DNA from: a virus
Virus record (IMG/VR): IMGVR_UViG_3300037587_000803
Location: 1-46,227 of that record
Strand: one strand, 5' to 3'
DNA length: 46,227 nucleotides
In this document: positions 10,284-44,081 of the stretch, in pieces
How the letters are laid out: each line of letters opens with the position of its first letter
Position numbering within the stretch: the first letter of the stretch is position 1
The notes under the pieces: model-generated
The model's database searches: none
The model's input: the letters and a program-made list of their open reading frames with translations, nothing else
What the model was told of the DNA's origin: nothing
Position numbers and translations under genes: made by a program

Positions 10284-10293
10284 GGAATAGATT

Positions 10294-10652: not shown

Positions 10653-10670
10653 AGATAACGGAGAAGAAAA

Positions 10671-11018: not shown

Positions 11019-11031
11019 AACAGGAGGTATT

Positions 11032-11265: not shown

Positions 11266-11275
11266 GAGGTAACAA

Positions 11276-11786: not shown

Positions 11787-11812
11787 AGAAATATAGAAAA
11801 GGAAAATAACCG

Positions 11813-13474: not shown

Positions 13475-13489
13475 ATAGGAGGTAAGAAA

Positions 13490-14212: not shown

Positions 14213-14303
14213 ATTATTAATTCTATACGCCAAAGCAGTAATCCGGTCAATGAGGCAATTCGCCGCATTGTTAGAAAGGATTGTAAAAGAAAACTCATTA
14301 TGA
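14196..14303 (+). CDS. Possible 35-residue helical peptide
   Basis: Overlaps the end of the previous gene by 17 bases; sequence begins MTLEARLLILYAKAV and stays helical. Weak binding site. Listed because the composition looks coding. Confidence 0.3.
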   Translation: MTLEARLLILYAKAVIRSMRQFAALLERIVKENSL

Positions 14304-14338
14304 TATAAGATTGCAAAAGAGTATAAGTTATGATATTC
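14279..14338 (+). repeat. Two imperfect 30-bp tandem units
   Basis: Units 14279-14308 and 14309-14338 match at 21 of 30 positions (both GATTG-AAAAGA ... TTATGATAT). The ATG of the following gene lies in the second unit, and the first holds an equivalent ATG with a stop two codons on. Probably a small duplication of a gene start. Confidence 0.5.
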
Positions 14339-14692
14339 TTTAAAAAGCTTCACAATAAATTCTTTCTTCTGCCACTCATCCAGGGTCTCGAGTGTGATAT
14401 TGCAGACCTAAAAAGCCGATTAAGACTTGAGAGTGATTACAGAGAATTGATTTGTAAGAAACTTGGCCTTGTTTCTACTTTAAATGATAGCAATATGCCA
14501 GCTACGCCTATAGTTTATACAAAAGAAGAATATGATAAAATTCTGAAAGTGAAATTACCTTCCCCTCAGCGGAGGAAATTAAATGCTGCACTAAATTTCC
14601 CAGACCGTGATATCGCAGGCATAAACCAGGCGCGCTATACACCCTTCACATGGTATGAAATGCCTTCAATGAAAAAGGTAACTGATAAATGA
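14330..14692 (+). CDS. Hypothetical protein
   Basis: 120 residues. Helical N-terminus with possible coiled coil (IADLKSRLRLESDYRELICKKL), then a Pro-rich middle and YTPFTWYEMPSM near the end. No family recognised. AT-rich like its neighbours in this 13.5-16 kb accessory insert. Confidence 0.5.
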   Translation: MIFFKKLHNKFFLLPLIQGLECDIADLKSRLRLESDYRELICKKLGLVSTLNDSNMPATPIVYTKEEYDKILKVKLPSPQRRKLNAALNFPDRDIAGINQARYTPFTWYEMPSMKKVTDK

Positions 14693-14723
14693 ACTCCGAA
14701 GTGGAGTAAGCAGGAGGCCAAAA

Positions 14724-15050
14724 TTGAATCAAAGAGATATAAAAAAAACCAAAAAACAACTTAGTTATTTGAAAAGACAGCAAAGAATAATCAAATACGT
14801 TATCAAAAAGTATGGTGGAAGGTTGCACCAAAAAGATTTTGATAAAGAATTTGCAAATTCTTATAAGAAAAATGGAAAGGTATACAGGCCTAAAAGGATG
14901 TTTGGTTGGGTTCCTATGCATATGGCTTGGCTCGGTTCTCTTTATCAGGGAGATTGGTCGAGATGGCTTGACCTTACCCAATTGATGGTAACGGTTAGTA
15001 AGTTAAAAAGAGAAGGGAAGCTCCCAAACGTTTATTATTGTTTGGTTTAA
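14724..15050 (+). CDS. Hypothetical basic protein, TTG start
   Basis: 108 residues. TTG 14724 follows a good aggagg at 12 bases, and no later ATG has one. Very basic first half (KKTKKQLSYLKRQQRIIKYV), then aromatic WVPMHMAWLGSLYQGDWSRW. May bind nucleic acid; family unknown. Confidence 0.5.
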   Translation: MNQRDIKKTKKQLSYLKRQQRIIKYVIKKYGGRLHQKDFDKEFANSYKKNGKVYRPKRMFGWVPMHMAWLGSLYQGDWSRWLDLTQLMVTVSKLKREGKLPNVYYCLV

Positions 15051-15074
15051 AGGACAATAAACAGGAGGTAAAGA

Positions 15075-15305
15075 ATGGACCAAGTTGATAAAGAGCTTTA
15101 TGACATTAGAGTCCATCTAGGCGTACCTGAAAAAGAAATTGAACTTATCAAGGAATCCAGATTGAAATCTACAATAGAGACTGAATGTACATGTGATGAA
15201 AGAGTTAGTTTTATTCTTGATAAGACCTGCGGCCGGAAGATATTTTATAGATGGAAGTGTGCGCTTCATGGAATATGTAACTTTCGAACAATGCAATGTC
15301 CCTAA
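15075..15305 (+). CDS. CxC/WxCxxHG small protein, paralog C
   Basis: 76 residues; aacaggagg site. LYDIRVHLGVPEKE and IKESRLKS match paralog B (11276) closely, also at DNA level. CTCDERVSF and RWKCALHG give the putative zinc site. Separated from its relatives by about 3.5 kb that includes the portal gene, and followed by the second copy of the 29-bp repeat. Confidence 0.65.
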   Translation: MDQVDKELYDIRVHLGVPEKEIELIKESRLKSTIETECTCDERVSFILDKTCGRKIFYRWKCALHGICNFRTMQCP

Positions 15306-15314
15306 AAGACAGTA

Positions 15315-15343
15315 AACAGTAGAAACAAGAGAGGAAGATAGTA
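15315..15343 (+). repeat. 29-bp direct repeat, copy 2
   Basis: One mismatch to 10990-11018. It contains gaggaagata just before the GTG of the next gene, so it may now serve as that gene's ribosome binding region. Confidence 0.75.
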
Positions 15344-15345
15344 GT

Positions 15346-15699
15346 GTGTCAAAAGTTTACGTAGTAATGGGTACAAGTGGGGAATATTCAGATAGAAATG
15401 AATGGCCAGTCATAGCTTATTTTGATAAAGAAAAGGCAGAACAGCATATAAAGAATGCTACGCAAGAAGCAAATAAAATATTTCAGAATAAGCCCATAAT
15501 AAAGAATAAGTATTGCCCCCAAAAAGGTGTCAACAAATATGATCTTGAAATGACCTGGGATTATGGTGATGGTTGTTCATATTTTATGTATGAAGTAGAA
15601 TTAATAGAAGGCGAACGATTAGCACAAAGGAGTCATAAAAGTACAAAAAGAGAGTTTCCTGAATTTGGAATTAAGGAACTAAATACTAAGAGGAAGTAA
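15346..15699 (+). CDS. Hypothetical phage protein, GTG start
   Basis: 117 residues. N-terminus VYVVMGTSGEYSDRNEWP followed by VIAYFDKEKAEQHI resembles a widespread small phage protein with a V-x-x-x-G-E-Y-S-D opening; function unknown. C-terminus basic. Confidence 0.55.
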   Translation: MSKVYVVMGTSGEYSDRNEWPVIAYFDKEKAEQHIKNATQEANKIFQNKPIIKNKYCPQKGVNKYDLEMTWDYGDGCSYFMYEVELIEGERLAQRSHKSTKREFPEFGIKELNTKRK

Positions 15700-15702
15700 C
15701 AA

Positions 15703-15978
15703 ATGCCTACTGAAGTAAAACTAGGTAGACTTGAAAAATTTGGTTTAATTTTTGAGAACAATAAATTTAATAAAAATGGCACTTACGTTCTTCGAATTGA
15801 AATGGGTTTTGAAGGATGTAATGATTATATTGGACGTGTAAAGGGAGAAATAGATCCAAAAATATTAGATATTTACAGAAAGCATGGGCAATCTGAGGTT
15901 GAATTTATTTTAAATAAAGCTAAACTGTATATTGCTTTGATAGAAAGAAGCGTTAAATATTTGGCAAAGGAATCCTAA
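15703..15978 (+). CDS. Hypothetical protein
   Basis: 91 residues; agaggaagtaaca site. Beta-rich start (GTYVLRIEMGFEGC) and helical end. Family not recognised. Last gene before the terminator that precedes the capsid genes. Confidence 0.5.
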   Translation: MPTEVKLGRLEKFGLIFENNKFNKNGTYVLRIEMGFEGCNDYIGRVKGEIDPKILDIYRKHGQSEVEFILNKAKLYIALIERSVKYLAKES

Positions 15979-16061
15979 ATGACTGAAATATATACGGTCA
16001 AAGGATTAAGACAGTGATATAGTTTATAAAATTCAGAGAAGTACCCAAACACGGGTTTATG

Positions 16062-16115
16062 CCCCTCTTTGGTTGTTGTTCATGGTTTGAACATACAATT
16101 ACTGAGGGGTTTTTT
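16062..16115 (+). terminator. Rho-independent terminator before the scaffold gene
   Basis: CCCCTC (16062-16067) pairs with GAGGGG (16104-16109), followed directly by six T. The long loop holds its own hairpin, TGTTCA/TGAACA (16077-16093). It separates the AT-rich accessory genes from scaffold and capsid. The 210-base stretch 15979-16188 otherwise holds only a 12-codon ORF (from 15978) and the scaffold ribosome site. Confidence 0.65.
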
Positions 16116-16188
16116 ATTAACCTGACATCGGAGACAAAATAACACTGAACCCGATGCAGACGGCTAATATGCCGAAGGAGGATTTACC

Positions 16189-16899
16189 ATGGCAGACGAA
16201 AACGGAAATTGGAAAGATGATTTGTCAGAGGACGTAAAGGGAAGCAAAGCCTTAAAAGACTTTGACGGGGTGGAATCCCTTGCCAAGAGCCACATTGAAT
16301 TAGTGGATAAAAGCGGAAAGCCATGGGTGGAGTCCCTTTCGGACGAAACGAGAACGGAGGATAACCTCAAGTCCTTGAAAGATAAAAGCATAGAAGATGT
16401 TACTAAGGACTATTTAAGACTGAAATCAGAAACAGCAGTAGTGCCGGAGAAACCGGAGGATTACAAGATCTCCCTGCCCGAAGGCGTTAAAAAGGAAAAC
16501 CCATTCACACAGGCTTTTCGGAATTGGGCGCATGAGGCGAAACTGTCCAATGACCAGGTGAATACTATTAATGCCAGCCTTGATGGATATATGATGGAAG
16601 AGATTAAGGCGCAACGGGAAGCACAGGAAGGTTTAAAGCAAAAGGCGGTTGACGCACTCAAAGATGAGTGGAAGACGGACTATGATGAGAAGAAGAAAAC
16701 TGCGCTTGCGGCCTTTGCCAAGTTGGTGCCTGATGAAAAGGAAAGGGAGCCATTTGCTGAATTTGGCAACAATCCTGCGGTGATTAAACTCTTCTATAAG
16801 ATAGGCACGATGATTTCAGAGGATAAATTTGTCCTAGGGGTAACGAGCGCTCATGAAACCAAATCAGCGGCTCAAGTCCTTTATCCCGAGCAAAAATAA
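16189..16899 (+). CDS. Capsid scaffold protein
   Basis: 236 residues, acidic/charged and mainly helical, immediately before the major capsid gene. N-terminus GNWKDDLSEDVKGSKALKDF followed by VESLAKSHIELVDK, and PEKPEDYKISLPEG, are typical of podovirus scaffold proteins. Expected to line the procapsid and be lost on maturation. Starts after gaaggagg. Confidence 0.8.
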   Translation: MADENGNWKDDLSEDVKGSKALKDFDGVESLAKSHIELVDKSGKPWVESLSDETRTEDNLKSLKDKSIEDVTKDYLRLKSETAVVPEKPEDYKISLPEGVKKENPFTQAFRNWAHEAKLSNDQVNTINASLDGYMMEEIKAQREAQEGLKQKAVDALKDEWKTDYDEKKKTALAAFAKLVPDEKEREPFAEFGNNPAVIKLFYKIGTMISEDKFVLGVTSAHETKSAAQVLYPEQK

Positions 16900-16920
16900 T
16901 TAAACAGAAGGAGTTAAATC

Positions 16921-17913
16921 ATGGCTACTAGAGGAACATTATATAAAACACTAGTTGACTGGGCAAGTCTGATTGATCCCAAAGGCAAAGTCGATAAGGT
17001 GGTTGAACTTCTCGCCGAGACCAATGAGATCCTGGACGATGCGGTATTTATGGAGGGGAACCTTCCGACAGGCCATAGGAGCACGATCAGAACAGGCTTG
17101 CCAAGTGTCACCTGGCGTAAACTGAATTATGGCGTTCAACCTTCCAAATCGACCACAGCTCAAGTCGATGACACCGTTGGTATGTGCGAGGCATTGTCAC
17201 AGATTGACGAGTCCATTGCCAGATTGAACGGCAACTCGGCTGAGTTTAGGTTGTCAGAGGATCGGCCATTCCTTGAAAAAATGAATCAGGAGATGGCTGG
17301 CGGTATGTTTTATTTCGATACTGATGATGATCCCGAAAAGTTTCTGGGACTAGTCGAGCGTTACCCGTACTCTAACAGCGAAAATGTCATTGCTACCGGG
17401 GGAACGGGAAGCGATACCACATCAATCTGGCTCGTTGTCTGGGGTCCTAACACAGTATTTATGATCTTCCCCAAGGGTTCAAAAGCGGGGATCGAACACA
17501 GGGATGTCGGAGGTGGAAAACCCGTCCTTGTTGACGATGCGGCAAGCCCAGCGGGTAAATATTGGGCCTTTCAGACACATTACAAGTGGGACATAGGCAT
17601 GGTTGTCAGAGATTGGCGATATGTTGTAAGGGTTGTCAATGTCGAATCCACCGGATCTAGCAACATCTTTGATCCGAATGACCTTATAACAGCATATAAC
17701 TTGATCCCCCAGATGAAGATGGGGCGAGCTGCAATCTACTGTAATGGAAGGATCAAGACCCAGATGGACAAGGATGCTTTTAGCGATTCAAACCGGATGT
17801 ATACTGTCGAGGAAGATGCCTTTGGATTCCCGATCACAAAGTTCTGGGGTATTCCGATCCGCAAGGTGGATCAGATACTAAACACTGAGACAGCCATACA
17901 ACCACGACCGTAA
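16921..17913 (+). CDS. Major capsid protein (BPP-1 type)
   Basis: 330 residues, start after gaaggag. VDKVVELLAETNEILDDAVF, RTGLPSVTWRKLNYGVQPS and STTAQVDDTVGMCEAL are close to the major capsid protein of Bordetella phage BPP-1 and relatives (HK97 fold). Builds the icosahedral head together with the cement protein encoded next. Confidence 0.92.
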   Translation: MATRGTLYKTLVDWASLIDPKGKVDKVVELLAETNEILDDAVFMEGNLPTGHRSTIRTGLPSVTWRKLNYGVQPSKSTTAQVDDTVGMCEALSQIDESIARLNGNSAEFRLSEDRPFLEKMNQEMAGGMFYFDTDDDPEKFLGLVERYPYSNSENVIATGGTGSDTTSIWLVVWGPNTVFMIFPKGSKAGIEHRDVGGGKPVLVDDAASPAGKYWAFQTHYKWDIGMVVRDWRYVVRVVNVESTGSSNIFDPNDLITAYNLIPQMKMGRAAIYCNGRIKTQMDKDAFSDSNRMYTVEEDAFGFPITKFWGIPIRKVDQILNTETAIQPRP

Positions 17914-17955
17914 CCAAGATGGGCTAATATCCATCGTATAAGAAGGAGATTAATC

Positions 17956-18402
17956 ATGTTTTTAGATTATCAAAATGAATTTTCGGTGGCGCAAGATGTT
18001 GAGGCATCTGATGTCAGTGAAAACATCATCGATACCGGGAAAAACGCTGGTGGGGCTTATCCGCTAAAAGTCCATGCCTGGGTAGATGGCGAGGCTTTCG
18101 CTGGTACTGGTGAGTTGATTCTGAAGCTCATTGATTGTGCAACAACCAACACCTACAGCGGTGCATCAACACTACTTTGGTCAGTGGGCCCTATACATAG
18201 GGCAAGCATGGTGGACGGATTTGTATTTACTTGTCCCCCAGTTCCGGCCAGGCACCGACAATACCTCCGAATGGGCTATGAAGTCGCTACGCAGTGTAAC
18301 GTTTTTAGTGCCGGAAAAATCTCAGCCAACCTTGTTCTGGATCTACAGACAAACGAGGAAAAGATGGGATTGGCTGATAGGCCTGTACACCCATTAGCAT
18401 AG
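17956..18402 (+). CDS. Capsid cement/decoration protein (Bbp16-like)
   Basis: 148 residues, start after agaaggag. Beta-rich: FLDYQNEFSVAQDV, AYPLKVHAWVDGEAF, LILKLIDCATTN and QYLRMGYEVA fit the Bbp16-type jelly-roll cement protein that sits on the BPP-1 capsid. Position right after the capsid gene agrees. Confidence 0.75.
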   Translation: MFLDYQNEFSVAQDVEASDVSENIIDTGKNAGGAYPLKVHAWVDGEAFAGTGELILKLIDCATTNTYSGASTLLWSVGPIHRASMVDGFVFTCPPVPARHRQYLRMGYEVATQCNVFSAGKISANLVLDLQTNEEKMGLADRPVHPLA

Positions 18403-18418
18403 CAGTATTAACCTGAAC

Positions 18419-18442
18419 GGGCCTGGGGTAAAAGCCAGGCCC
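18419..18442 (+). terminator. Strong hairpin after the capsid genes
   Basis: GGGCCTGG (18419-18426) pairs perfectly with CCAGGCCC (18435-18442) around an 8-base loop. Only a short AT-rich tail follows, so it may weaken transcription or protect the capsid mRNA rather than terminate fully. Confidence 0.45.
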
Positions 18443-18465
18443 CCTATTAAAAGAGGTATCGACAT

Positions 18466-18798
18466 ATGGGAGAGTATATTTGTAGGGCTAAATGTTATCA
18501 CCATAAGCTTTATGACGTAGGTGATTCATACATGGCAAAGGATGGTGAGACGGTTCCGGGCCACTTTGAGCGTAAGGGTTCCGCCGAAGAGGAAGCCAAG
18601 TTGTCTGAAGAGCAGAAATTCCGCAATATGCTGGAGCGTCTCGATACATACGGCCTTATATCCTATGCCAAGAAAGAATACGACAAGCGCTTCCATCCTA
18701 AGACTGGCAAGGAAAAGCTCATCGAAAAAATCATAGCCTTGCAGGAAGAAAAGATGGCAGAGGAGAAAGAGCGTTCAGAATCTGAACATATAGAATGA
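18466..18798 (+). CDS. Head-region protein with SAP/Rho-N-like C-terminus
   Basis: 110 residues. N-terminal beta part (CRAKCYHHKLYDVGDSYMAK) resembles small head-completion-region proteins; residues 62-95 (MLERLDTYGLISYAKKEYD, then GKEKLIEKIIAL) look like a SAP/HeH helix-extended-helix motif. Ends in ATGA overlap with the O-antigen-ligase-like gene. Confidence 0.55.
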   Translation: MGEYICRAKCYHHKLYDVGDSYMAKDGETVPGHFERKGSAEEEAKLSEEQKFRNMLERLDTYGLISYAKKEYDKRFHPKTGKEKLIEKIIALQEEKMAEEKERSESEHIE

Positions 18799-20288
18799 TC
18801 TTAGAACTCTACATGCTTTTTTCCGTGGTTTTTATCCCGTTGTTTTGGGTATGGCAACCACTTGATAGCAGAAGTTATCTCTTTATCCTGGGGACAAATC
18901 TCGCTGTCATAGTCTTGATATGGGTTTCTTTTCTAAAACAGATACCGATTGACCTATATATCCCTTCAATCCCCATAGCCCTCTTTCTTGTCTGGATATT
19001 CCTATCCAATTCCTGGTCCACAGCACCAAAGCAGAGCTGGATAGATACACTTATATGGCTGTCCATGTTTGTCCTTTTCTCTGTAGCGCAAAGAATACCC
19101 AAAGAGTTTGTCCTGTTGGCCGTCTCCTTGCCAAGTTACGGAATGCTACCAGTTTTGTTCTACCAGAAATTTAAGGAAAAAAAACATTTACCGGGGTCCA
19201 TATTCGGAAATGCGAACCACATCGGAAGCTATTTCACATTGAGCCTGTTTGTGTTCTTGTGGCTTTCTCTTAATGTTTCTATATGGCATTTGATAATGGT
19301 AGGGCTTTTGCTCATTGCGATTGTTCTTTCTAAATGCAAGGCCGCATGGATAAGCATCATATCGACATTAGTTATATTACTTTACTTCCAGACGAAAGTT
19401 AACTTCATTCTTGTATTGCCGATTCTTTTATGCGCTTTGTATTTTGTGAAATTGAAACCTCATGTCAGGAATAAATACTTTGCGGCCAGGCTCGGTTATT
19501 ATGTTGCAGTATTAGACTGCATAATACGCAGACCTCTTTCCGGATGGGGATTGAGGACATTCAGGCGTGAGCAATTCTTCGCGGTACATCGCATACAGAA
19601 GAGACGGCCAAACACATACAGAAAAGAGACGGCTTCAAAGGCAGAGCATGTATACGAAAAATTCCCACTTCCCCGGACTCATAGAGTACACAATGATTAT
19701 CTGGAAATATGCCATGAAACAGGTCTTGTGGGTCTTTTCCTTTTCCTCTATATCCTGTATCAGCTTCAATGGACTCAAGACCTTATCCTTTCAGCCGGAT
19801 TATTGGCCATTCTTATAATGGCTCTGTTTTTCTTTCCCCTTCGTGAACCCCATATCGCTGCGCCTTTCTGGGCTCTGGCCGGAACTATATCGCAACCTGG
19901 TGTAGTCCTACCTCCTGGCTATTCCCTCTTTGTTGTGATATTAGTTCTGGCCATTTCCTATATGGCTTACCAATACGCTTACAAGAAATTGGTTGCTATC
20001 TATTGGTGGATGAAAGTTCCAGGTGCCGAGACAGAAGAGAAATGGAAAAAGGCGCTTTCCAAATGCTACAAGAATGATCCCTATCAGAATCAATTCTTGA
20101 TGTATTTCTACCGGACGCATCTAAAGGTAAATCCCAGTTTCGCGCTCGATTGTATGTCTAGGATGAGTGAGCATTATGACGGAAGCATTACGGTGGCCAG
20201 TATACAATCCATAAGACCGAAGTTTGCACCCCCCGAAATGGTTCAACCCCAACAAACAAAGAAACAGAAAAAAAGAGGTAAGAGATGA
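18795..20288 (+). CDS. O-antigen ligase/polymerase-like membrane protein
   Basis: 497 residues with about ten membrane segments and a basic tail (KKQKKRGKR). The Wzy_C/WaaL signature is present in order: FGNANHIGSY (137-146), LSKCKAAWI (178-186), PLSGWGLRTFR (247-257), and HNDYLEICHETGLVGLFLF (299-317) after a long basic extracytoplasmic-type loop. Such enzymes join or polymerise O-antigen on lipid carriers at the inner membrane. It overlaps the genes on both sides by 4 bases inside the virion operon, so it should be expressed late with capsid and fibre. The C-terminal 90 residues are soluble and helical. Likely role is changing host LPS to block re-adsorption or superinfection; that is inference. 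Confidence 0.75.
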   Translation: MILELYMLFSVVFIPLFWVWQPLDSRSYLFILGTNLAVIVLIWVSFLKQIPIDLYIPSIPIALFLVWIFLSNSWSTAPKQSWIDTLIWLSMFVLFSVAQRIPKEFVLLAVSLPSYGMLPVLFYQKFKEKKHLPGSIFGNANHIGSYFTLSLFVFLWLSLNVSIWHLIMVGLLLIAIVLSKCKAAWISIISTLVILLYFQTKVNFILVLPILLCALYFVKLKPHVRNKYFAARLGYYVAVLDCIIRRPLSGWGLRTFRREQFFAVHRIQKRRPNTYRKETASKAEHVYEKFPLPRTHRVHNDYLEICHETGLVGLFLFLYILYQLQWTQDLILSAGLLAILIMALFFFPLREPHIAAPFWALAGTISQPGVVLPPGYSLFVVILVLAISYMAYQYAYKKLVAIYWWMKVPGAETEEKWKKALSKCYKNDPYQNQFLMYFYRTHLKVNPSFALDCMSRMSEHYDGSITVASIQSIRPKFAPPEMVQPQQTKKQKKRGKR

Positions 20289-21631
20289 CACGATCATCCG
20301 TAGTATCGCCTATCACGAGATATACTTGCAATGGAGTAACAACCGCTTTCCCTACACTGTTTCAGTTCCTTAACGATGACGAGTTGAAAGTTGTTTTTAT
20401 CCCCGCTGACACAACGATAGCAGAGACTACGCTGACGCTGACCACGAACTTTACCGTATCGGGTGGGGATGGAGAGACAGGTACGGTGACAACTACGGGT
20501 GACGACCCTTTAGGCAATGATCCGTATGATAGTGGGGATCTTGTCATAATAAGGGAAACACCGCTCACTCAAGAGATAGAATCCCGGACTACAGGCGCAT
20601 TTAGACCCCCGAATATCGAAAATGCTCTTGATAAGACTTGTGATCAGATGCAGGAGAGGGAAAGCCTGTCAAGTTTTGCGCTTAGGTTGCCGGATACAAC
20701 GGATTTGACAGAAATTAGTGCGGAATTGCCTACATTGGAAGGTTCTAAGTTTCTCGCTGTAAATTCTTCAGCCACAGAATTTCTCTTTGCAACTTCAGTG
20801 ACTGGAGCCCCTGTTTCCAGCTATGGGGCCTCTCTTATAGATGATCCAACCGCAGCTTCCGCATTAGAGACCCTGAGCCTTCCTGCTCTTATGAGAACTC
20901 TTGTAACCGATGCGGTTCAAGCCTCGGCATTACAGACATTGGGAACGAGCAACGCTTTTCGGCGGGCTACCTTTGCCAAGTATGACGCTACCCATATAGT
21001 GGCTAGTGGTCTAGCCGAATATATGTGTAAAGATAAATATTGTCGTTGGGAAGTGCCACTGATTACAGAAGGAATACCGATAGTCGGTTCCGATTTCTGG
21101 CATCTCTATCTTGATTATTCGGAAATTACTCGCGGCGAACTGGTTACCGCTTCCGGGCTTACCTGGTCAATAACTGACCCTACATGGAATGGACCCTATG
21201 GTCAATACATGAACGGTGATGACACGTGCATCATGTCCGTTCTGGCAAGTGGAACTGAAATCTTTGAATTTTTCCATGACGGTGATTATGTATCCTATGG
21301 CGATGGAATTGAAGATAAGGCTTCTGGCACTGTAGGCACAGATTGGGCAAATGAAGTAACCTTGACTGTGCCGAGTTTTGTCAGGAAAGTTAGAGCAAAC
21401 TTTGAATATAAGCGTAATGACCAAAGTATAAAACTCTATTGGAGAACGGGAGGACAAACACTCACCAAGGGCAATCTGATTTGCGGTGTTAGTACTGCTG
21501 CTACTCAGACTTATAACGCACTGGATGTTATTTGCAGTTCTAACCTGAAAATAGACCTCAAAGGAGGGGCAACGGCATCAAATACTGTAGTTGAGGAAAC
21601 ACAGGGTTGGTCTTTCCCGTCAGGGATGTAA
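20285..21631 (+). CDS. Tail fibre/tail protein with T7-gp17-type N-terminus
   Basis: 448 residues. Residues 10-40 (RYTCNGVTTAFPTLFQF, DELKVVF) and RETPLTQEIESRTTGAFRPPN, then LDKTCDQMQERESL match the virion-attachment N-terminal domain of T7-type tail fibres. The remaining 300 residues are beta-rich and likely form the receptor-binding part. Start overlaps the previous stop. Confidence 0.75.
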   Translation: MTRSSVVSPITRYTCNGVTTAFPTLFQFLNDDELKVVFIPADTTIAETTLTLTTNFTVSGGDGETGTVTTTGDDPLGNDPYDSGDLVIIRETPLTQEIESRTTGAFRPPNIENALDKTCDQMQERESLSSFALRLPDTTDLTEISAELPTLEGSKFLAVNSSATEFLFATSVTGAPVSSYGASLIDDPTAASALETLSLPALMRTLVTDAVQASALQTLGTSNAFRRATFAKYDATHIVASGLAEYMCKDKYCRWEVPLITEGIPIVGSDFWHLYLDYSEITRGELVTASGLTWSITDPTWNGPYGQYMNGDDTCIMSVLASGTEIFEFFHDGDYVSYGDGIEDKASGTVGTDWANEVTLTVPSFVRKVRANFEYKRNDQSIKLYWRTGGQTLTKGNLICGVSTAATQTYNALDVICSSNLKIDLKGGATASNTVVEETQGWSFPSGM

Positions 21632-21642
21632 GGAGAGAAAAG

Positions 21643-21957
21643 ATGCGAGAAATCTATATAATTTATAACAAAAAAACAGGCTACATAGAGGATGGTGGGG
21701 GCAGGATCGACAGGACAAAACCTGGAAAGATGATGAATATAGCGATTCCACGTATTTTGAGCGAGGGGCCTGATAGAGAAGTCCTTTATTTACCGAACCA
21801 GAGTTTACCCAATTCTGAGAAGCATAAAATTAAGGACGGCAAGATAGTTAAACTAACACAAGAGGACAAAGCAGCCATTGAAGTAGCCAGACCTAGAACC
21901 GAGATTGAACTTTTGGAAGATAGAGTTTCTTCCTTAGAAGCACTTATTTTTCCTTAA
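21643..21957 (+). CDS. Small tail-fibre-associated protein
   Basis: 104 residues from ATG 21643, which follows aaggagag; the upstream in-frame ATG overlaps the fibre gene. IYIIYNKKTGYIEDGGG and a closing helix EIELLEDRVSSLEAL. Could be a fibre chaperone or attachment protein; position suggests so, no family assigned. Confidence 0.5.
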   Translation: MREIYIIYNKKTGYIEDGGGRIDRTKPGKMMNIAIPRILSEGPDREVLYLPNQSLPNSEKHKIKDGKIVKLTQEDKAAIEVARPRTEIELLEDRVSSLEALIFP

Positions 21958-21973
21958 TAACAGGAATTAACTT

Positions 21974-22537
21974 ATGGCACGCAGCAAGATCGATATATTC
22001 AATCTGGCACTGGCCAAAATAGGCAGTATAGCTATCAGCGATCCCGATGGTGCGGCAAAGGGGGCCGAGTATTGCACCATATTCTATGATGAGATCAGGC
22101 AGGAGGTTCTAAGAGAGCATCCCTGGAACTTCGCCACAAAGCGGATCGCATTCGCTGAAGCGGCTGCCGAACCCGATTTCGGCTATGATTATGCCTATAG
22201 TTTGCCTGCCGATTGCCTTTTTGTCAGACATCTCAGCGAGGAAAAGTACAAGTGGGTCGTTGAAAGTGGTGAGCTCCTTACCGATATGGAAGGTGCCAAA
22301 GCAATCTACACAAGGGACATTGATGACCCGAATGATTTTGATCCTCTCTTTGTTGGGGCTTTTGCGACAAGACTTGCCGCTGAGGTTGTAGCTGCCCTGA
22401 AGCCTCAAGATGGTTCAAAAAGAAAAATACTCTGGGAGATGTATGAGATCATTCTTAACAGGGCGAAAACGGCCAATGCGAAAGAACGCAAGAAGAAACC
22501 TGAACCTAAGAATGCCTTTGTTGATGCCAGGCAATAG
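21974..22537 (+). CDS. Tail tubular protein A (gp11-like)
   Basis: 187 residues. SKIDIFNLALAKIGS, YDEIRQEVLREHPWNFATKR and ADCLFVRHLS are typical of the gp11/tail tubular A family, the adaptor that joins portal to tail nozzle. It is followed at 2 bases by the nozzle gene, the conserved order. Confidence 0.85.
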   Translation: MARSKIDIFNLALAKIGSIAISDPDGAAKGAEYCTIFYDEIRQEVLREHPWNFATKRIAFAEAAAEPDFGYDYAYSLPADCLFVRHLSEEKYKWVVESGELLTDMEGAKAIYTRDIDDPNDFDPLFVGAFATRLAAEVVAALKPQDGSKRKILWEMYEIILNRAKTANAKERKKKPEPKNAFVDARQ

Positions 22538-22539
22538 CA

Positions 22540-24717
22540 ATGTTGAGGAAAATCCAAAATGCCTTTACCTCAGGGGAGCTTTCACCTGAGCTTGCCGCAA
22601 GGACCGATTTTGAGAAGTACGAAAGCGGATGCCGAACCCTTAAAAATTGGATAGTCAGACCTTATGGTGGCGTTTCCAACCGCACGGGTTTTCGCTATAT
22701 AGCAACAACAAAAAATTCTTCTAAGAAATCCAGGCTCATCGAATTTGAATTTTCCGATACCCAGGCTTATATCCTTGAATTCGGAGAAGAATATATCCGC
22801 TTCTATATGGACGGGGGCCAGATTCAAAGTGCAGGGGCTCCCTATGAAGTGGCGAGCTCCTATCTTGAGGAAGATCTTGACTCAATCCATTATACCCAAT
22901 CCGCAGATGTTCTCTATCTATTCCATCCCGATTATACTCCGAGGAAACTTGTAAGGACTGGTCATGCATCATGGACGCAAAGTGAAATAGATTTCAGATG
23001 GCCGCCTTTTAGGGATGAGAATACTGATGCAGATCTTTTTATTACCGCATCGGTAGAAACACCGGGAGACCCTACAGGCCTTACTGCATCAAACGATCTT
23101 TGGAATGAAGAGTATGTAGGTCAATTCTGGAAATTGGGAGGGGGATATGTAAAAATAACTGCGGTTGGCGATAGTCTATTGGCTTCGGGATTAGTTGTGT
23201 CCACCGTTCCACTGGCGGCTACAAGCGTTTGGTCAAAAGGGGCGTGGAACCCACAGAGAGGTTATCCAAGGACAGCTACATTCGATAATGACCGACTTGT
23301 AGCTGCCGGGAATAGGGATGAACCACAACGCATATGGGGTTCTGTGATAGGAGACTATGTGAACCATAAGGCGGGGGTAAATGATGATGATGCTTATCGG
23401 CATAGGATAGGCGCACAGAAGGCAAATGTAATCAAAAGCGTATTGTCCGAGAAACATTTGATAGTGATGACAAATGGGGGGGAATGGGTGGTTGGTGTTT
23501 ATGGGCAATACATATCACCGAGCAATGCCCCCCGGAGGCGGGAATCTGCTTTTGGCAGTTCCAATGTTATGCCATTTGCCATAGGGGATATAACGCTATA
23601 TCTGCAAAGACCGGGAAAAGCGCTGAGGAGTCTTAAATATGAGTATGAGTCGGAGGGATATACAGGTGAAGATCTGTCTTTGATGGCGGAGCATCTAACC
23701 AAGTCAAATGTTATTGTTGAAATGGCCTATCAACAGTCACCGAATCAGATAATATGGTGTGTCAGGGATGATGGAGTTTTGCTTGGCCTGACATATATGC
23801 CGGAGCATAAGGTTACAGGATGGCATAGGCATGAGACACAAGGCACCTTTGAGAGCTGTGCAGTAATCCCGAGTAATGATGAAGATGAGCTTTGGACGAT
23901 ATGCAATAGAACCGTAGGGGCTACCACGGTGAGATATATTGAAAGGCTCGATCCTTCTTTTAGAGGGAATAACACATATGATGCCTTTTTTCTGGATTCA
24001 GGATTGAGCTATGACCCGGATGAAGTTGATATCACGGATATAAGCCAGACAAACCCTGCTGTTGTTACAGCACCCGGACATAGTATCGATGCTAGTAACA
24101 TGGTCAGATTCACGGAAGTATTGGGTATGACGGAGGTTAATTATAGTAGTTTTGAGGTAGGAGCCACAACAGCGACAACCTTTGAGCTTGCATATGTGAA
24201 TGGAGCTGCATATACAGCCTATATATCGGGAGGCAAGGCAAAAAAAGCCATAACACATGTAACCGGCCTTGGTCATCTCGAAGGGAAAACAGTGAGCATA
24301 CTTGCCAGCGGTGCCACGGTGCCTGATGAGATAGTGGTTGGCGGTTCTGTTCTTCTTGATTATCCTGCGGTTCCGATTCACGCGGGACTTTCCTATGAAT
24401 GCGATTTAGAGACGCTCGATCTTGATGTACCTTTACAGATTGGAACCTTCCAGGGATTAACCGGAAAGATAGTGGGATGTATCTTAAAGGTTTACAATTC
24501 ATTCGGGGCATGGATAGGACCCGATGAAGACAATCTAAAAGAAATTATGTTCTGGTCGAGTGATGATTATCTGGTGGGCGCTCCCCCTGGATTGTTTACA
24601 GGGAATATAACAGGTGAGGCCGATTTCGATTATTCACCAACAGCCCGGGTTTTTATAAGGCATCAAACACCGTTGCCTATGACCGTTCTAGGCATAATAA
24701 CTGAAATAGAGGTATAA
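22540..24717 (+). CDS. Tail tubular protein B / stubby-tail nozzle
   Basis: 725 residues. N-terminus FTSGELSPELAARTDFEKY, CRTLKNWIVRPYGGVSNR and GFRYIATTK is the hallmark of podovirus tail-nozzle proteins. RLIEFEFSDTQAYILEFGE follows. Forms the hexameric nozzle through which DNA leaves. Full length for the BPP-1-type family. Confidence 0.9.
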   Translation: MLRKIQNAFTSGELSPELAARTDFEKYESGCRTLKNWIVRPYGGVSNRTGFRYIATTKNSSKKSRLIEFEFSDTQAYILEFGEEYIRFYMDGGQIQSAGAPYEVASSYLEEDLDSIHYTQSADVLYLFHPDYTPRKLVRTGHASWTQSEIDFRWPPFRDENTDADLFITASVETPGDPTGLTASNDLWNEEYVGQFWKLGGGYVKITAVGDSLLASGLVVSTVPLAATSVWSKGAWNPQRGYPRTATFDNDRLVAAGNRDEPQRIWGSVIGDYVNHKAGVNDDDAYRHRIGAQKANVIKSVLSEKHLIVMTNGGEWVVGVYGQYISPSNAPRRRESAFGSSNVMPFAIGDITLYLQRPGKALRSLKYEYESEGYTGEDLSLMAEHLTKSNVIVEMAYQQSPNQIIWCVRDDGVLLGLTYMPEHKVTGWHRHETQGTFESCAVIPSNDEDELWTICNRTVGATTVRYIERLDPSFRGNNTYDAFFLDSGLSYDPDEVDITDISQTNPAVVTAPGHSIDASNMVRFTEVLGMTEVNYSSFEVGATTATTFELAYVNGAAYTAYISGGKAKKAITHVTGLGHLEGKTVSILASGATVPDEIVVGGSVLLDYPAVPIHAGLSYECDLETLDLDVPLQIGTFQGLTGKIVGCILKVYNSFGAWIGPDEDNLKEIMFWSSDDYLVGAPPGLFTGNITGEADFDYSPTARVFIRHQTPLPMTVLGIITEIEV

Positions 24718-36520: not shown

Positions 36521-37888
36521 TTACTCCTTATCAAACTCAGTCCAGGTGGGGCAGTTTTCCCTATCTTTACAATTTTTCTTACACCACATGACTGTTGGTT
36601 TCTCGTCTTCTTCTCGGTTCAGACACTTCACAAATATCGCTTCACCATCAAGAAATGGCCCTTTTTCCGCACCGTCAACGAGGCGCATGAACTTCTCCTC
36701 GTCCGTCTCATCGGCAGGAGTTTCAGGCTCAAGATTTGCATTTGGGCCTGTGGGTGTTTTGGGCTCCTTGATTTGCTCACCCGGTCCAGGATAAGGCTCA
36801 TCCTTGAACCGCTTTCCCCAACCTATCTGAATCTCATCCTGATTGACCTGGGGATAAGTGGGGATCTCATCTAGGCAAGATGTGACAAACTTCTTGAAAT
36901 TCTTATCCCCGAGGCCCTTATAGAGCTTTCGGATTGCCTCTTCCTTGGTAGGCTTTTCCTTTTTCTCCCATGTCTTGAATTGATGCCAAAAGCCTTCAAG
37001 GTCTTTGGTAGCCTCGGCTTTGATTTCCTCAACAGGCTTGTCAAAATGTTTTGCACAGACCGCGAGAAACTTTTGCAGGGCTTCTAAGTCAATCCCTTGA
37101 GGGATACCAGCATCGAATTGGATGATGAGGTCGGTGAGATCGGTGGATTCTTCAACTGATCTAAGGTTAGGTAATTTCTCAAACATATCGCTTTGAGATA
37201 ATCCAGTCTCTACTCTATGATCTAATTCAACGGCTCTTTCCATTTCAATACTGCAAGGCTGTAATTTGGAATGGTTCTTGATAACGGTTTTTTTAAACAT
37301 CTCATCTTCACTCTTTCCCCATACACTATCCTTTCCCGATTGTTTCCAAGATTTGCTGTAAGTATCCCTGACATGCAGAATATCTACTGTCGGCAGAAAG
37401 AGGAAAGACTGTGTTCCGTTATCGAATGTCCAAACGGTATAGGCCCCTAATTTCTCCCCGCGGTCTCCAAAGAGATAAGGTTTGTGATAGCATTTCTCAT
37501 TGTCCCCGTATTCGATGTCAAACTCATCCTTTGAGTAAACGACATGAGCGGTAACTTTTACGTCACCTGTCCTTCGACCAAGATCAATGAGGCCCCGATA
37601 CATGGGCTGGAACTGCATCTCCTTTCCGTAAGGGATAAGGGCGGCTTTGCCAAGTACAGGGGGAAGACCAAGCTGGGCGCTTTCGATCATAGCACCTAAC
37701 ATGCTCTCCTTTGTGCAATCCTGCAATTTTGGGTTTCTAAGCATAGCTGTCCAGCATGTCCTTAAAAAAGTGTCTGCATTAAGAAATGAGGGCAATGCTG
37801 CCTCAAGTTGTTTGACGACATGAGGTTGATTGATGTAATCCCTTACTGTAATCGCCTTTTTTTGGGTTACTGTTAATTCTTGTGCCAT
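36521..37888 (-). CDS. recT: RecT single-strand annealing protein with Cys-rich extension
   Basis: 455 residues; aacaggagg site. Residues 1-250 are RecT: LRTCWTAMLRNPKLQDCTKE, SMLGAMIESAQLGLPP, AALIPYGKEMQFQPMYRGLI and KTVIKNHSKLQPCS. Anneals complementary strands during phage recombination, working with the exonuclease encoded downstream. It is much longer than E. coli RecT (269 residues): the extra 180 residues include a helical part, a Pro-rich linker and a terminal Cys cluster (FVKCLNRE ... MWCKKNCKDRENCP) that may bind zinc. Confidence 0.88.
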   Translation of the reverse strand: MAQELTVTQKKAITVRDYINQPHVVKQLEAALPSFLNADTFLRTCWTAMLRNPKLQDCTKESMLGAMIESAQLGLPPVLGKAALIPYGKEMQFQPMYRGLIDLGRRTGDVKVTAHVVYSKDEFDIEYGDNEKCYHKPYLFGDRGEKLGAYTVWTFDNGTQSFLFLPTVDILHVRDTYSKSWKQSGKDSVWGKSEDEMFKKTVIKNHSKLQPCSIEMERAVELDHRVETGLSQSDMFEKLPNLRSVEESTDLTDLIIQFDAGIPQGIDLEALQKFLAVCAKHFDKPVEEIKAEATKDLEGFWHQFKTWEKKEKPTKEEAIRKLYKGLGDKNFKKFVTSCLDEIPTYPQVNQDEIQIGWGKRFKDEPYPGPGEQIKEPKTPTGPNANLEPETPADETDEEKFMRLVDGAEKGPFLDGEAIFVKCLNREEDEKPTVMWCKKNCKDRENCPTWTEFDKE

Positions 37889-37935
37889 TTTAAATCCTCC
37901 TGTTTAAAGTTTTTAAAACTCCATCACCTCTTGGC

Positions 37936-38112
37936 TTAATCCTTTGTCGAGTCTCCGGGGTTTAGTGCCTTATTAGACAGAAAATTCCCACATGATTTAG
38001 AATATACTTCGTTATCTACTAGGTATTTGTGGAGCCTACAACAATACATGCCTTGAGGGAATCTCATGCCATACTCACAAACTTCACATTCTTCTATTCC
38101 ATATGTATCCAT
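37936..38112 (-). CDS. Small Cys-rich protein
   Basis: 58 residues, start after gaggataaatc. ECEVCEYGMRFP and MYCCRLHKY give a CxxC...CCxxH zinc-type pattern. Neighbouring genes on the same strand also encode zinc ribbons. Function unknown. Confidence 0.55.
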   Translation of the reverse strand: MDTYGIEECEVCEYGMRFPQGMYCCRLHKYLVDNEVYSKSCGNFLSNKALNPGDSTKD

Positions 38113-38115
38113 GAT

Positions 38116-38322
38116 TTATCCTCTGGCTCGCCATAATTTTTTTTTCTGGGTCCACGTCAAATCCTCATATATGGTGCAATCGGTTCCGCCACATTTAGGA
38201 CAACTGTCAGGAGCCCAACTCCCCCCACCCCTGAATAGGGAGTCAGGAGTCAAGCACTTTGAACAGAATAATCTACCTTTGTTGATGGTGCAGAATTTAT
38301 CTTGGTAGTAGGGTTTAAACAT
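38116..38322 (-). CDS. Zinc-ribbon protein
   Basis: 68 residues. RLFCSKCLTPDS and DSCPKCGGTDC form a four-Cys ribbon; basic C-terminus (WTQKKKLWRARG). Lies between the recombination genes; may bind nucleic acid. Confidence 0.6.
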   Translation of the reverse strand: MFKPYYQDKFCTINKGRLFCSKCLTPDSLFRGGGSWAPDSCPKCGGTDCTIYEDLTWTQKKKLWRARG

Positions 38323-38326
38323 TTTC

Positions 38327-39037
38327 TTATCTATGAACCGCTGATACCTTCTCGTATATCTTGACTCCGGAGATCTCCCTAACTCCCATCTTTACGGCCT
38401 GATTGATGAGTTTCTGGTCAGGCACACAATACTCATGGGGGACTTTTTTCGGGTCTTCGATCTCTCCTACCCACATCTTTCTAAGATGCTGACTGTGGCC
38501 CCCTGCGGTGTGGGTGACAGTTTCAGGCTTTGGAAGTGTAACAGGCATCACAACAGGAGCTTCCACACCGTCTTTTTTTGCCTGTTTATCAAGATCTGCT
38601 TGGAGTTTTGCGTTTGCCTCTTCGATCAATTTCTGTTTTTTCTTTTCAGCAAGCTCTAGTTGATATTGATAATCGCCACCTTTCCGGCTGAACTCCTGGG
38701 CAACTCTCTTGAGGGGATCCGTAAAGAATTTGGCAGCATTATTAACCTTGTTGATAAATTCCCTGTAAGGATTGCCTAACTCTGTCCTCCGGCCTTCGAT
38801 AGCCTTAACAAGTCCTTTGGCTGTCCCTGCACCATCAATAGAGATCTGAAACGTCTCCTGATCAATAACCTTCAATTCCTTGGCCTGCTTTTCAAGCTCG
38901 GCTAGTTTTGGCTTATATTGCTCAAGCTCTTTCTGGATGGGTTCAATTGCTGGGGGACCGCTTTCTATCATTCGTTTTGGAAGATGCCTGACTTTACTCT
39001 TTTTAGCTATTTCCTCTCCTACCTGTGAAAAATCCAT
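38327..39037 (-). CDS. Conserved recombination-cassette coiled-coil protein
   Basis: 236 residues, start after aggaggtatc. Long helical middle (ELEQYKPKLAELEKQAKELK; KKKQKLIEEANAKLQADLDK) and C-terminus RKMWVGEIEDPKKVPHEY ... GVREISGVKIYE. This C-terminal block is common in phage proteins encoded beside RecT and its exonuclease. Precise role unknown. Confidence 0.6.
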   Translation of the reverse strand: MDFSQVGEEIAKKSKVRHLPKRMIESGPPAIEPIQKELEQYKPKLAELEKQAKELKVIDQETFQISIDGAGTAKGLVKAIEGRRTELGNPYREFINKVNNAAKFFTDPLKRVAQEFSRKGGDYQYQLELAEKKKQKLIEEANAKLQADLDKQAKKDGVEAPVVMPVTLPKPETVTHTAGGHSQHLRKMWVGEIEDPKKVPHEYCVPDQKLINQAVKMGVREISGVKIYEKVSAVHR

Positions 39038-39049
39038 GATACCTCCTAT

Positions 39050-39271
39050 TTATATATCCCAAAAAACATATCCCTCTTGCCTATAACAACTTAAAACTTT
39101 TTGCTTTTTTAAATGATCGTAAGGTGGAACAAGGTTGATGTGGATTTTTTTCCTTTGCACAATTTTTGCATTTTTGAGGCTCCAACATTCTTTAATGCTA
39201 AGAGGATTATGCCCATTATAAAAATTCTCATTACATCCAGTACAGTATTTTAATTTCTGCTGTTTTGTCAT
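39050..39271 (-). CDS. Conserved small phage Cys protein
   Basis: 73 residues. YCTGCNENFYNGHNPLSIKE followed by CWSLKNAKIVQRK and a later VLSCYRQEGYV. The C-x-x-C-x(n)-F-Y-N-G-x-N-P-L pattern recurs in small phage proteins; function unknown. Confidence 0.6.
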   Translation of the reverse strand: MTKQQKLKYCTGCNENFYNGHNPLSIKECWSLKNAKIVQRKKIHINLVPPYDHLKKQKVLSCYRQEGYVFWDI

Positions 39272-39284
39272 TTAGCCTTCCTCC

Positions 39285-39818
39285 TCATTTACCGAAATAG
39301 TTATGGGCGTTAAGCAGACCCAGGAATATATTGAAATCCTCTCCACTATTCTCATATCTCACCATCTTCGGGATGCCTCCTTTTGGATCTAATTGCAGGG
39401 AAGCAATCACATCGACCACTTGTTTTTTCACATCCAGGAGCCTCCTGTATGCTGATAGCTGCACTTTCCATTGTTTATAAAGGGTAAGGGGTGTCTTCCA
39501 GTCAATTAAGGTCATATCGAGCGATTTTAGCCTTCCATAGAAATCTAAATGTCCAAGGAACCCATACACTGGATCCACTAATTCCTTTTCACTAAAAATC
39601 ACTTTCTCCACATAAGCATCAAACCAGGTCCGAAAGCTGAGGATATACCCCGCAAGATCCGGCGGGATAGGAGGTATCCACAAACCCTGACAGATAGCAG
39701 CTATAATTCGATGGACTTCCTGGCCCCGAAGAGTAGCCCGAGTAAGGATGTATTCTGGAACCATAGAGAAATCTGTGTAGGGTTGTAAGATTCTCGTTAC
39801 TGAAGGATATTTTTTCAT
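39285..39818 (-). CDS. PD-(D/E)XK (RecB/Cas4-type) exonuclease
   Basis: 177 residues from the Met at 39818; the frame is open further upstream (to 39956) but that part overlaps the HNH gene and looks non-coding. Motifs: RGQEVHRII (H36), GFLGHLDFYG (D92), LIDWKTP (D106, K108) and QLSAY (Q120-Y124). Would resect 5' ends to make substrate for RecT. The ribosome site is poor, so the start is uncertain and translation may be coupled to the HNH gene. Confidence 0.75.
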   Translation of the reverse strand: MKKYPSVTRILQPYTDFSMVPEYILTRATLRGQEVHRIIAAICQGLWIPPIPPDLAGYILSFRTWFDAYVEKVIFSEKELVDPVYGFLGHLDFYGRLKSLDMTLIDWKTPLTLYKQWKVQLSAYRRLLDVKKQVVDVIASLQLDPKGGIPKMVRYENSGEDFNIFLGLLNAHNYFGK

Positions 39819-39858: not shown

Positions 39859-40182
39859 TTACATAAATCTCCCTTTACTGTCTTTTTCTCGATATGGATA
39901 TCGTAATTTAGCATGTAACCTGCTATGTCCCCCATGAGACATACAGGTAATATCATCCGGCCTTTCTGCTCCGTGGCAGAGATCGTTATGGTGTTGGATA
40001 ATAGTATCTTTACTTAGTTTACCGTGTTTACCGTTGTTGCGAGAAGCTATTCTTTGTCTAAGAGTTTTAACTGCTTTACCCATTCTGCGAGCAGATTCAA
40101 TTTGTTTCATAGTTCTCGGAAGTTTACAAGAAACTTCCTGTGCTTTTTTTATACTTTTACGCCAAAAAACTTCAGTAGACAT
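39859..40182 (-). CDS. HNH endonuclease-like protein (minus-strand copy)
   Basis: 107 residues from ATG 40182 (gggagaaata upstream). HNH-type block IIQHHNDLCHGAERPDDIT (61-79) closing with GGHSRLH. One basic KLPRTMKQIESAR unit precedes it. The same block, nearly identical, is found in the protein at 43557-44081, so the genome carries two related HNH genes. This copy directly follows the hairpin-rich non-coding stretch. Free-standing homing-type nuclease is the likely identity. Confidence 0.75.
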   Translation of the reverse strand: MSTEVFWRKSIKKAQEVSCKLPRTMKQIESARRMGKAVKTLRQRIASRNNGKHGKLSKDTIIQHHNDLCHGAERPDDITCMSHGGHSRLHAKLRYPYREKDSKGRFM

Positions 40183-40203
40183 TATTTCTCCCAAAGACAG
40201 CAA

Positions 40204-40670
40204 CCCTAGTCCTTGCTTTTCCAGTAAGCCTTGGCAAAAGGGCCGCTGTCTGTCTAAAGGTTATCTCCACCTTCAGCCTGACCGGGGTGTGTCCAGCCAG
40301 ACTAGAGGCCCCGGGAAAAAGGAGGGAAAGCCCGGGGCGGGGGGTGTTAGGGTAGCTGTGCAGCTATGTTTTAACAGGGGCCAGCTTCGGTTTTAGCCTT
40401 TATATGGATTTAGAATCCATGCCCGGCATACATATCTGTACGGCTGCTTCTGTGGCAGGCCGTCCATCCACGCATAGAGTTAACCAAATCTCTATCGGGT
40501 ATCTAGCCTTTGCCCATAACTACACAGCAAGAATTTCAAAGAACTGTCTTAATCCTCACCCATGTCACATGGTTTAGCCTTTTGCGGCACCTGTGCGTGG
40601 GGTTGGATGTATTCAACCACTCTCCGCTGAGAGAGTTTTCACCTTCTCAGGGTAGAGATGGGAGAAGTCA
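40204..40670 (-). ncRNA. Large hairpin-rich non-coding region, candidate structured RNA
   Basis: About 470 bases with no convincing ORF, between an HNH gene and a small Cys protein gene. Read by eye, ten stems follow one another, for example 40278-40285/40293-40300, GCCCCGGG 40308-40315/40331-40338, TAGCTG 40353-40358/40361-40366, ATGGATT 40404-40410/40414-40420, ACGGCTGC 40440-40447/40455-40463, ATAGAG 40474-40479/40490-40495, CCATG 40560-40564/40568-40572, GGTTG 40601-40605/40614-40618, ACTCTC 40619-40624/40631-40636 and CTTCTC 40643-40648/40662-40667. Stem 40278-40300 keeps pairing on minus through two G-U pairs that are A-C mismatches on plus, favouring minus-strand RNA. TAGCCTTT occurs three times (40394, 40504, 40575). 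Confidence 0.55.
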
Positions 40671-40940
40671 TCAAGATTCAACGGTTATTACACCACTAAT
40701 TAAGACATTGGTACATCCTGGATATTGGACAAACCAATACTCCTTTCTGGCATCAAAATTACGAAATTGTTTCGCCTCTTGATGCCGAATGGTTCCCTCA
40801 TAATAACAGATGCAGTTCCCGTCTGCTGCCGGTATTACATGACAGGATTTTTGAATTATAGGACACCACCCTAAACTTTTGGCTCTTGCTGCGCCTAAGG
40901 CTTGGGCAGCTTCGTCTTCTGTCTCAAATTGAGTCTTCAT
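40671..40940 (-). CDS. Small Cys-containing protein
   Basis: 89 residues, start after gggagggtgag. Helical start (DEAAQALGAARAKSLGW), then CPIIQKSCHVI, GNCICYYEG and YPGCTNV; four or more Cys may bind metal. Conserved-looking but unknown. Its stop borders the structured region. Confidence 0.5.
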   Translation of the reverse strand: MKTQFETEDEAAQALGAARAKSLGWCPIIQKSCHVIPAADGNCICYYEGTIRHQEAKQFRNFDARKEYWFVQYPGCTNVLISGVITVES

Positions 40941-41868: not shown

Positions 41869-41897
41869 TTGACTTTCAATGTTTAATCAAATATCAT
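41869..41897 (+). promoter_or_regulatory. Rightward promoter giving a leaderless message
   Basis: -35 TTGACT (41869-41874), spacer exactly 17, -10 TATCAT (41892-41897). The expected start of transcription, about 7 bases after the -10, falls on the ATG of the HTH gene (41905). No Shine-Dalgarno precedes that ATG. Confidence 0.65.
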
Positions 41898-43147: not shown

Positions 43148-43557
43148 GCCCTAACTGGAGCCCCGAAGACCTACTCATAGCCCAAGAGCGAGTCAAGCTC
43201 AACATGCAAGGGCCAACAGTGGATGCCTTGACAGGTAAAGACTTAGAATCCGCAGATCCAGGTCCAGAGTCCGAATTGCAGAAGAAGATAGTGGCCGATG
43301 CTAAGAGAAATGGCTGGCCCTGTTTATCCTTCAGGATGTCTAAGCAGGCTAAAGGTTTTCTTGTTCCCGGTTGGCCAGACCTCACCCTTTGCCTACCCTT
43401 TGGCCGGGTGGTATTCATGGAGTTAAAGACAGCTAAAGGGGCTTTGAGGGATAAACAACGACTCATTGTAAACATGCTCCGTCAACTTGGGCATGAAGTG
43501 TATGTTGTAAGAAGCTTTAAATCTTATCTCAAAATTGTGGAGCAAAAAGCAGAATAA
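43144..43557 (+). CDS. VRR-NUC domain nuclease
   Basis: 137 residues from ATG 43144 (ATGA overlap). Catalytic set: E44 (PESELQKKIV), D79 in VPGWPDLTLC, E93 and K95 in VFMELKTAKG, then Q105. VRR-NUC enzymes cut branched or structured DNA; phage copies stand near replication and recombination genes. Confidence 0.85.
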   Translation: MSPNWSPEDLLIAQERVKLNMQGPTVDALTGKDLESADPGPESELQKKIVADAKRNGWPCLSFRMSKQAKGFLVPGWPDLTLCLPFGRVVFMELKTAKGALRDKQRLIVNMLRQLGHEVYVVRSFKSYLKIVEQKAE

Positions 43558-44081
43558 TGGTAAAGAAAATTTATAAAAAGAAACAATCTGAAAAACAAAA
43601 AGAACAAACAAAAAGACTTCATGCATTGCCTAGAAGCGCAAAACAGTTAGAAGCCTTTTTTAAGTCACAACAAATAGGTCGAAAATTACCTAGAACTAAG
43701 AAGCAGATTCAACACTGGCAAGAATTACTTAAAAAGCCAAGGACTAAAACCCAACGTGAAGCTTCTCGTGCAAGCGTAAAGAAGGCATGCGAAGCTAGTC
43801 GAAAACTCCCTAGAACTAAAGCGCAGTTAGAAGCTAATCGTAAAAATGGATGCAAACTTGTATTTAACCCACATGGATCTACTGTATCTGCTAATGACAT
43901 CATAGAGCATCACAATGACTTGTGCCATGGCGCAGAAAGGCCAGATGATGTTACTTTAATGACTCATAGCGAACATAGCAGATTACATATGGAATTACGT
44001 ATAAAGAACGGTACTCATCCTCATCGTGGCATTGTGGAGCCCAAACCACAGGACCTGCATGGGAATTTGGAGGGGGAATGA
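43557..44081 (+). CDS. HNH endonuclease with LPRTK repeats (plus-strand copy)
   Basis: 174 residues; TAATG overlap. Four basic repeats of the form LPR[TS]-x-K-Q-x-x-A start at about 24, 44, 60 and 84, like NUMOD-type DNA-binding repeats of homing endonucleases. HNH block IIEHHNDLCHGAERPDDVT (115-133) ends in HSEHSRLH (H140, H144). Closely related to the minus-strand HNH gene. AT-rich and probably mobile. Confidence 0.8.
   Translation: MVKKIYKKKQSEKQKEQTKRLHALPRSAKQLEAFFKSQQIGRKLPRTKKQIQHWQELLKKPRTKTQREASRASVKKACEASRKLPRTKAQLEANRKNGCKLVFNPHGSTVSANDIIEHHNDLCHGAERPDDVTLMTHSEHSRLHMELRIKNGTHPHRGIVEPKPQDLHGNLEGE

Follow-up and report, generated by a model that had tools for sequence, protein, structure and literature searches.

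ROOL and GOLLD are large, elaborately folded non-coding RNAs of phages and prophages that often, but not obligatorily, lie near tRNA islands, and GOLLD frequently exceeds 800 nt (PMC12286853). Few structured phage RNAs of large size are known, and what they do is mostly obscure. The protein encoded next to HEARO and the omega RNAs of IscB and IsrB contains both RuvC and HNH parts. Here we analyzed a candidate from a viral genome, the minus strand of positions 40186–40666, which is probably a structured RNA outside Rfam.

The window, i.e., the whole stretch of viral DNA that was analyzed (46.2 kb), carries the same ~27 bases at both ends, and the genome is therefore probably complete. It encodes a GP7-type capsid protein and a head-tail connector, and an early block on the minus strand carries RecT and an exonuclease of PHROG 298. 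The nearest named relative of the structural genes is vir555 (59.5% for the capsid), while that of the exonuclease, a 236-aa protein and RecT is MetMV (40–51%). The genome is mosaic: positions 36521–39818 (exonuclease, 236-aa protein and RecT) resemble the Methanosarcina virus MetMV, and the structural block at 7704–24717 resembles vir555, which is labelled Methanomicrobiales, and epsilon15/phiV10-like phages. Both named relatives bear methanogen host labels, that of MetMV being a computational prediction (PMC7164591). A bacterial-looking terminator (16060–16115) and sigma-70-like boxes (41869–41897) argue against a methanogen host. The source virus is possibly an epsilon15-like podovirus, for which a methanogen host is conceivable. 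An O-antigen ligase gene (Wzy_C, Pfam PF04932) is located at 18795–20288 amid the capsid and tail genes, and perhaps serves to alter the host surface.

In the minus-strand operon, the candidate occupies exactly the interval from the end of an 89-aa ORF, at its stop codon, to the Shine-Dalgarno (SD) sequence of an HNH-type gene (Table 1), and the genome is compact apart from this stretch. No credible ORF is present in 40190–40673 and no frame is open throughout; codon scores of five of the six frames are near zero or negative, and the remaining frame has seven stops. The statement in an earlier note on this DNA that 40204–40670 holds no credible ORF was thus borne out. The stretch itself stood, and its limits were improved to about 40186–40666, as set by the flanking stop codon and by the SD sequence and start codon of the HNH gene. 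The stretch has a G+C content of 51%, above the 43% of the genome and the 38% of the HNH gene. Neither a promoter nor a terminator of its own was found for the RNA on the minus strand, and a search for relatives of the 89-aa ORF returned none. The exonuclease is intact when compared with its MetMV counterpart.

Table 1 Features of the candidate RNA and its neighborhood.
Feature	Position	Strand	Remarks
89-aa ORF	40671–40940	-	Upstream of RNA; stop codon 40671–40673
Proposed structured RNA body	40186–40666	-	~480 nt; 5' end is the high coordinate; MFE z -6.06; non-coding
Closing stem, 5' arm UUCUCCCA	40659–40666	-	Mean pair probability 0.94
Closing stem, 3' arm UGGGAGAA	40186–40193	-	Includes HNH SD 40188–40192
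Three 5'-side hairpins	40657–40620, 40618–40601, 40595–40566	-	Maximum-accuracy fold
Long central arm	40561–40342	-	Includes 14-bp helix
14-bp central helix, 5' arm GCUGUGUAGUUAUG	40515–40528	-	Probability 1.00; two U-G pairs
14-bp central helix, 3' arm CAUAGCUGCACAGC	40355–40368	-	Partner of 40515–40528
GCCCCGGG/CCCGGGGC stem-loop	40308–40338	-	Probability 1.00
11-bp stem-loop	40275–40303	-	Probability 0.94; three G-U pairs on minus strand
13-bp helix AGACAGCGGCCCU/AGGGUUGCUGUCU with inner stem-loop	40195–40251	-	3' end; probability 0.99
Word AAAGGCUA, copy 1	40575–40582	-	
Word AAAGGCUA, copy 2	40504–40511	-	
Word AAAGGCUA, copy 3	40394–40401	-	
107-aa HNH-type ORF	39859–40182	-	HH-N-H motif; G+C 38%; atypical codon use, codon score 0.006
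Exonuclease gene	39285–39818	-	Downstream of HNH; PHROG 298; 41% identical to MetMV protein
Second HNH gene (paralogue)	43557–44081	+	No adjacent RNA

The minus strand folds far more stably than expected from its composition. Its minimum free energy is -191.8 kcal/mol, whereas 250 shuffles with preserved dinucleotide content gave -152.8 ± 6.4 kcal/mol and none was as low (z -6.06); by such fold statistics, a leader or remnant that folds strongly would look the same as a functional RNA. A separate test with a fold tool gave z -5.6 for the minus strand and z -2.9 for the plus strand. The hairpin-rich candidate of the earlier note accordingly holds as a whole fold beyond chance. Likewise, none of the 250 shuffles equalled the 13 bp of the candidate's second-longest helix or the 11 bp of its third-longest, and among 109 sampled 480-nt windows of the genome, those of this region had the lowest minus-strand score. 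Regarding the strand, the earlier note had argued from G-U pairs. These are present on the minus strand in the 11-bp stem, but their count was dropped as strand evidence because the plus-strand fold has more of them (21 vs 17), and the energy difference relative to the shuffles was taken as the measure instead. Folding of the minus strand yields 11.8 kcal/mol more stability than folding of the plus strand, while the shuffles favor the plus strand by 6.5 ± 6.0 kcal/mol and none of 250 reaches the observed difference, which supports the minus strand as the RNA strand. Strong folding was also observed elsewhere in the genome. The gap at 15979–16188, ahead of the gene preceding the capsid gene, folds at z -4.1 with a terminator-like hairpin and has no Rfam match, and a plus-strand window at 841–1320 (z -4.5) lies within the ORF 837–1487.

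The maximum-accuracy fold, predicted from a single sequence and uncertain as drawn, comprises eight helices around a junction that is closed by an 8-bp stem. The 5' arm of the closing stem starts a few bases past the 89-aa ORF and its stop codon, and the 3' arm contains the HNH SD sequence (GGGAG, 40192–40188), five bases ahead of the AUG (40182–40180). End-to-end pairing at the level of the closing stem was also found in 37 of 250 shuffles and is not significant alone. One short stem is placed between the 11-bp stem and the 13-bp helix. The fold has competitors, i.e., a long-range pairing of 40591–40600 with 40468–40477 and an alternative pairing of GCAAAAGG (40585–40578) with CCUUUUGC (40241–40234), and in the model the latter could form a loop contact. 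The individual stems listed in the earlier note are in place, although single stems of 6–7 bp carry little weight in 470 bases; two of them, TAGCTG/CAGCTA and ACTCTC/GAGAGT, give up their bases to longer pairings in the best global fold. The three TAGCCTTT words were likewise located where described, but their weight is weak, since three copies of some 8-mer were also seen in 71 of 5000 shuffles (1.4%) and, along the genome, in 47 of 458 windows.

The region has no match in Rfam at gathering scores. The gathering scores of Rfam 15 also miss the group I introns of T4 td, T4 nrdB and SPO1 gene 31, so this negative is not proof of absence, and negative Rfam scans of phages in general call for caution. 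In a permissive mode (E up to 10), the positive control T4 td was found with 40.3 bits and an E value of 1.9e-8, while no match to group I (RF00028) or group II introns was obtained for the region, the control covering group I only; a standard group I intron is therefore unlikely. RF00028 recognizes the conserved catalytic core of group I introns (P3–P8, P7/J8/7), and the group II signatures in Rfam are domain V and D1–D4. GOLLD, ROOL, OLE, HEARO, RNase P and tmRNA gave no match in the same mode, for which the positive control was a group I intron. Weak hits to sR14, L17DE and Six3os1 were rejected as chance. ARAGORN and Rfam assigned the region to no tRNA, tmRNA, RNase P or other class, in agreement with the absence of group I, group II, tRNA, tmRNA and RNase P signatures reported in the earlier note. 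The Rfam search that it had proposed likewise left GOLLD, ROOL, HEARO and the group I/II introns without a match, and ARAGORN found no tRNA gene in the whole genome. Its suggestion of kinship with GOLLD and ROOL is thus not supported, given the Rfam result and the lack of tRNA genes, nor is that with HEARO and omega RNA, given the Rfam result and a 107-aa HNH protein devoid of IscB/IsrB parts. Identity with GOLLD, ROOL or HEARO is unlikely.

Relatives were searched for by sequence, pattern and protein bait. A blastn search against 50,697 phage records and 72,556 plasmids returned nothing beyond chance. The triple AAAGGCTA pattern gave 31 hits in viral contigs, nearly all in coding sequences or tandem repeats and none in a similar context; a stricter triple pattern gave one hit only in GTDB genomes, a Treponema intergenic repeat, and a two-word pattern gave none in viral contigs. 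The Treponema locus (L044, 3220–3530) is an intergenic repeat array with AAAGGCTAAAACC-like units in both orientations. Protein baits (HNH, RecT, capsid, 89-aa ORF and exonuclease) led to distant viruses only, which lack either such an RNA nearby or the region itself. No match to the RNA was found in seven related viral records searched whole, nor by sequence in the gaps of vir555 and MetMV. One gap of vir555 (15200–15623) folds at z -3 to -3.7. Because the viral contigs were searched by pattern only and very near relatives of the window may have been left out of the data, absence of the RNA elsewhere is not proven.

The HNH ORF received no assignment from Pfam, PHROG or NCBIfam, and its AlphaFold model (pLDDT 56) was unusable. 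As judged from its motif, the product resembles a small homing endonuclease; the motif is common to P0001 and L042, another virus. The earlier note described an HNH protein without RuvC, in agreement with the finding of only an HH-N-H motif and no IscB/IsrB parts in the 107 residues. The phage has two HNH paralogues on opposite strands, both with LPRTxxQ motifs. The association of RNA and HNH gene proposed earlier is weak and not supported, for the paralogue begins at the last base of its preceding gene, the relative in L042 directly follows its previous gene, and neither is accompanied by such an RNA. In MetMV, neither the RNA nor an HNH gene directly precedes the exonuclease-RecT block. Because its relatives occur without the RNA and its composition looks foreign, the HNH gene is probably of the homing type and came to lie next to the RNA by insertion into the operon, rather than encoding the protein partner of the RNA. 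In the simplest reading, the RNA is not a guide of the HNH protein.

The evidence for the RNA itself is fairly good, and we propose the following course for it. It would be transcribed within the early recombination operon (89-aa ORF, RNA, HNH, exonuclease and RecT) and may fold as a single body of eight helices whose junction is closed by the predicted 8-bp stem. This body would be cut out of the operon transcript, persist as a stable RNA and serve early infection as an RNA component, either a scaffold or a decoy. The closing stem would mask the HNH ribosome-binding site, so that HNH is made only with the stem open; a ribosome terminating on the 89-aa ORF could melt the stem, because its 5' arm starts just past that stop codon. 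We give an even chance to this reading as a whole, i.e., a genuine ~480-nt RNA of the operon with a closed, stable body that hides the HNH start. Points against it are the single sequence, the frequency of the closing stem in shuffles and the competing pairings. A more tentative proposal, which we hold to be possible but on balance doubtful, is that the RNA represents a large phage RNA of a new class, produced from a recombination operon, built on the triple AAAGGCUA and unrelated in sequence to GOLLD, ROOL, OLE and omega RNA.

Among the alternatives, a purely cis-acting leader, which would steer translation or decay of HNH-exonuclease-RecT with no independent RNA, is unlikely yet ranks highest. 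It would account for the HNH SD sequence within the predicted closing stem and for the position of the RNA between the stop and start codons of operon genes. A length of 480 nt with many independent helices, however, far exceeds what is needed to hide a ribosome-binding site, and no known cis-regulator in Rfam matches. A mobile intron or intron-like element of divergent or unknown type, comprising the RNA and HNH (about 40674–39858) and self-splicing now or formerly, is also improbable and comes next. Exon 1 would be the 89-aa ORF, whose stop lies just inside the element, and exon 2 a short frame before the exonuclease, MERVRPVACCPKKL ending at a stop. A size of ~815 nt with HNH cargo is typical of phage group I introns (T4 nrdB and td, SPO1 gene 31), the composition and codon use of HNH appear foreign, and the exonuclease-RecT block of MetMV is free of both RNA and HNH. 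This is opposed by the permissive search that recovered T4 td at 1.9e-8 with no group I/II match here at E up to 10, by an exon 2 of at most 14 codons given the gap after HNH, and by the lack of any relative of the 89-aa ORF that would display the uninterrupted gene.

The least probable of these explanations is that a functionless G+C-rich sequence, foreign or decayed, folds unspecifically. The elevated G+C content (51% vs 43% in the genome and 38% in HNH) and the lack of homologues in everything searched would suit such a remnant, but the dinucleotide-preserving shuffles fall short of the fold by 6 SD, the strand bias goes beyond all 250 of them, and the rest of the phage genome is compact.

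If the preferred reading of a stable operon RNA is true, a recombination-operon RNA whose predicted fold hides the start of the next gene offers a defined, testable case. In comparison with known systems, the locus shares with the phage group I introns T4 td, T4 nrdB and SPO1 gene 31 a structured RNA together with an HNH/GIY-YIG ORF, but no group I core was detected in it by the permissive mode that finds T4 td, and no conserved gene is visibly interrupted. As with HEARO and the omega RNA of IsrB/IscB, the RNA adjoins an HNH-coding gene; here, in contrast, the protein is a 107-aa homing-type HNH with no room for the other IsrB/IscB parts, its relatives occur without the RNA, and there is no Rfam match. 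A homo-oligomeric cage is a hallmark of ROOL and GOLLD. The candidate is ~480 nt long, is without an Rfam match and comes from a genome without tRNA genes, but like them it would be a large folded non-coding RNA of a phage.
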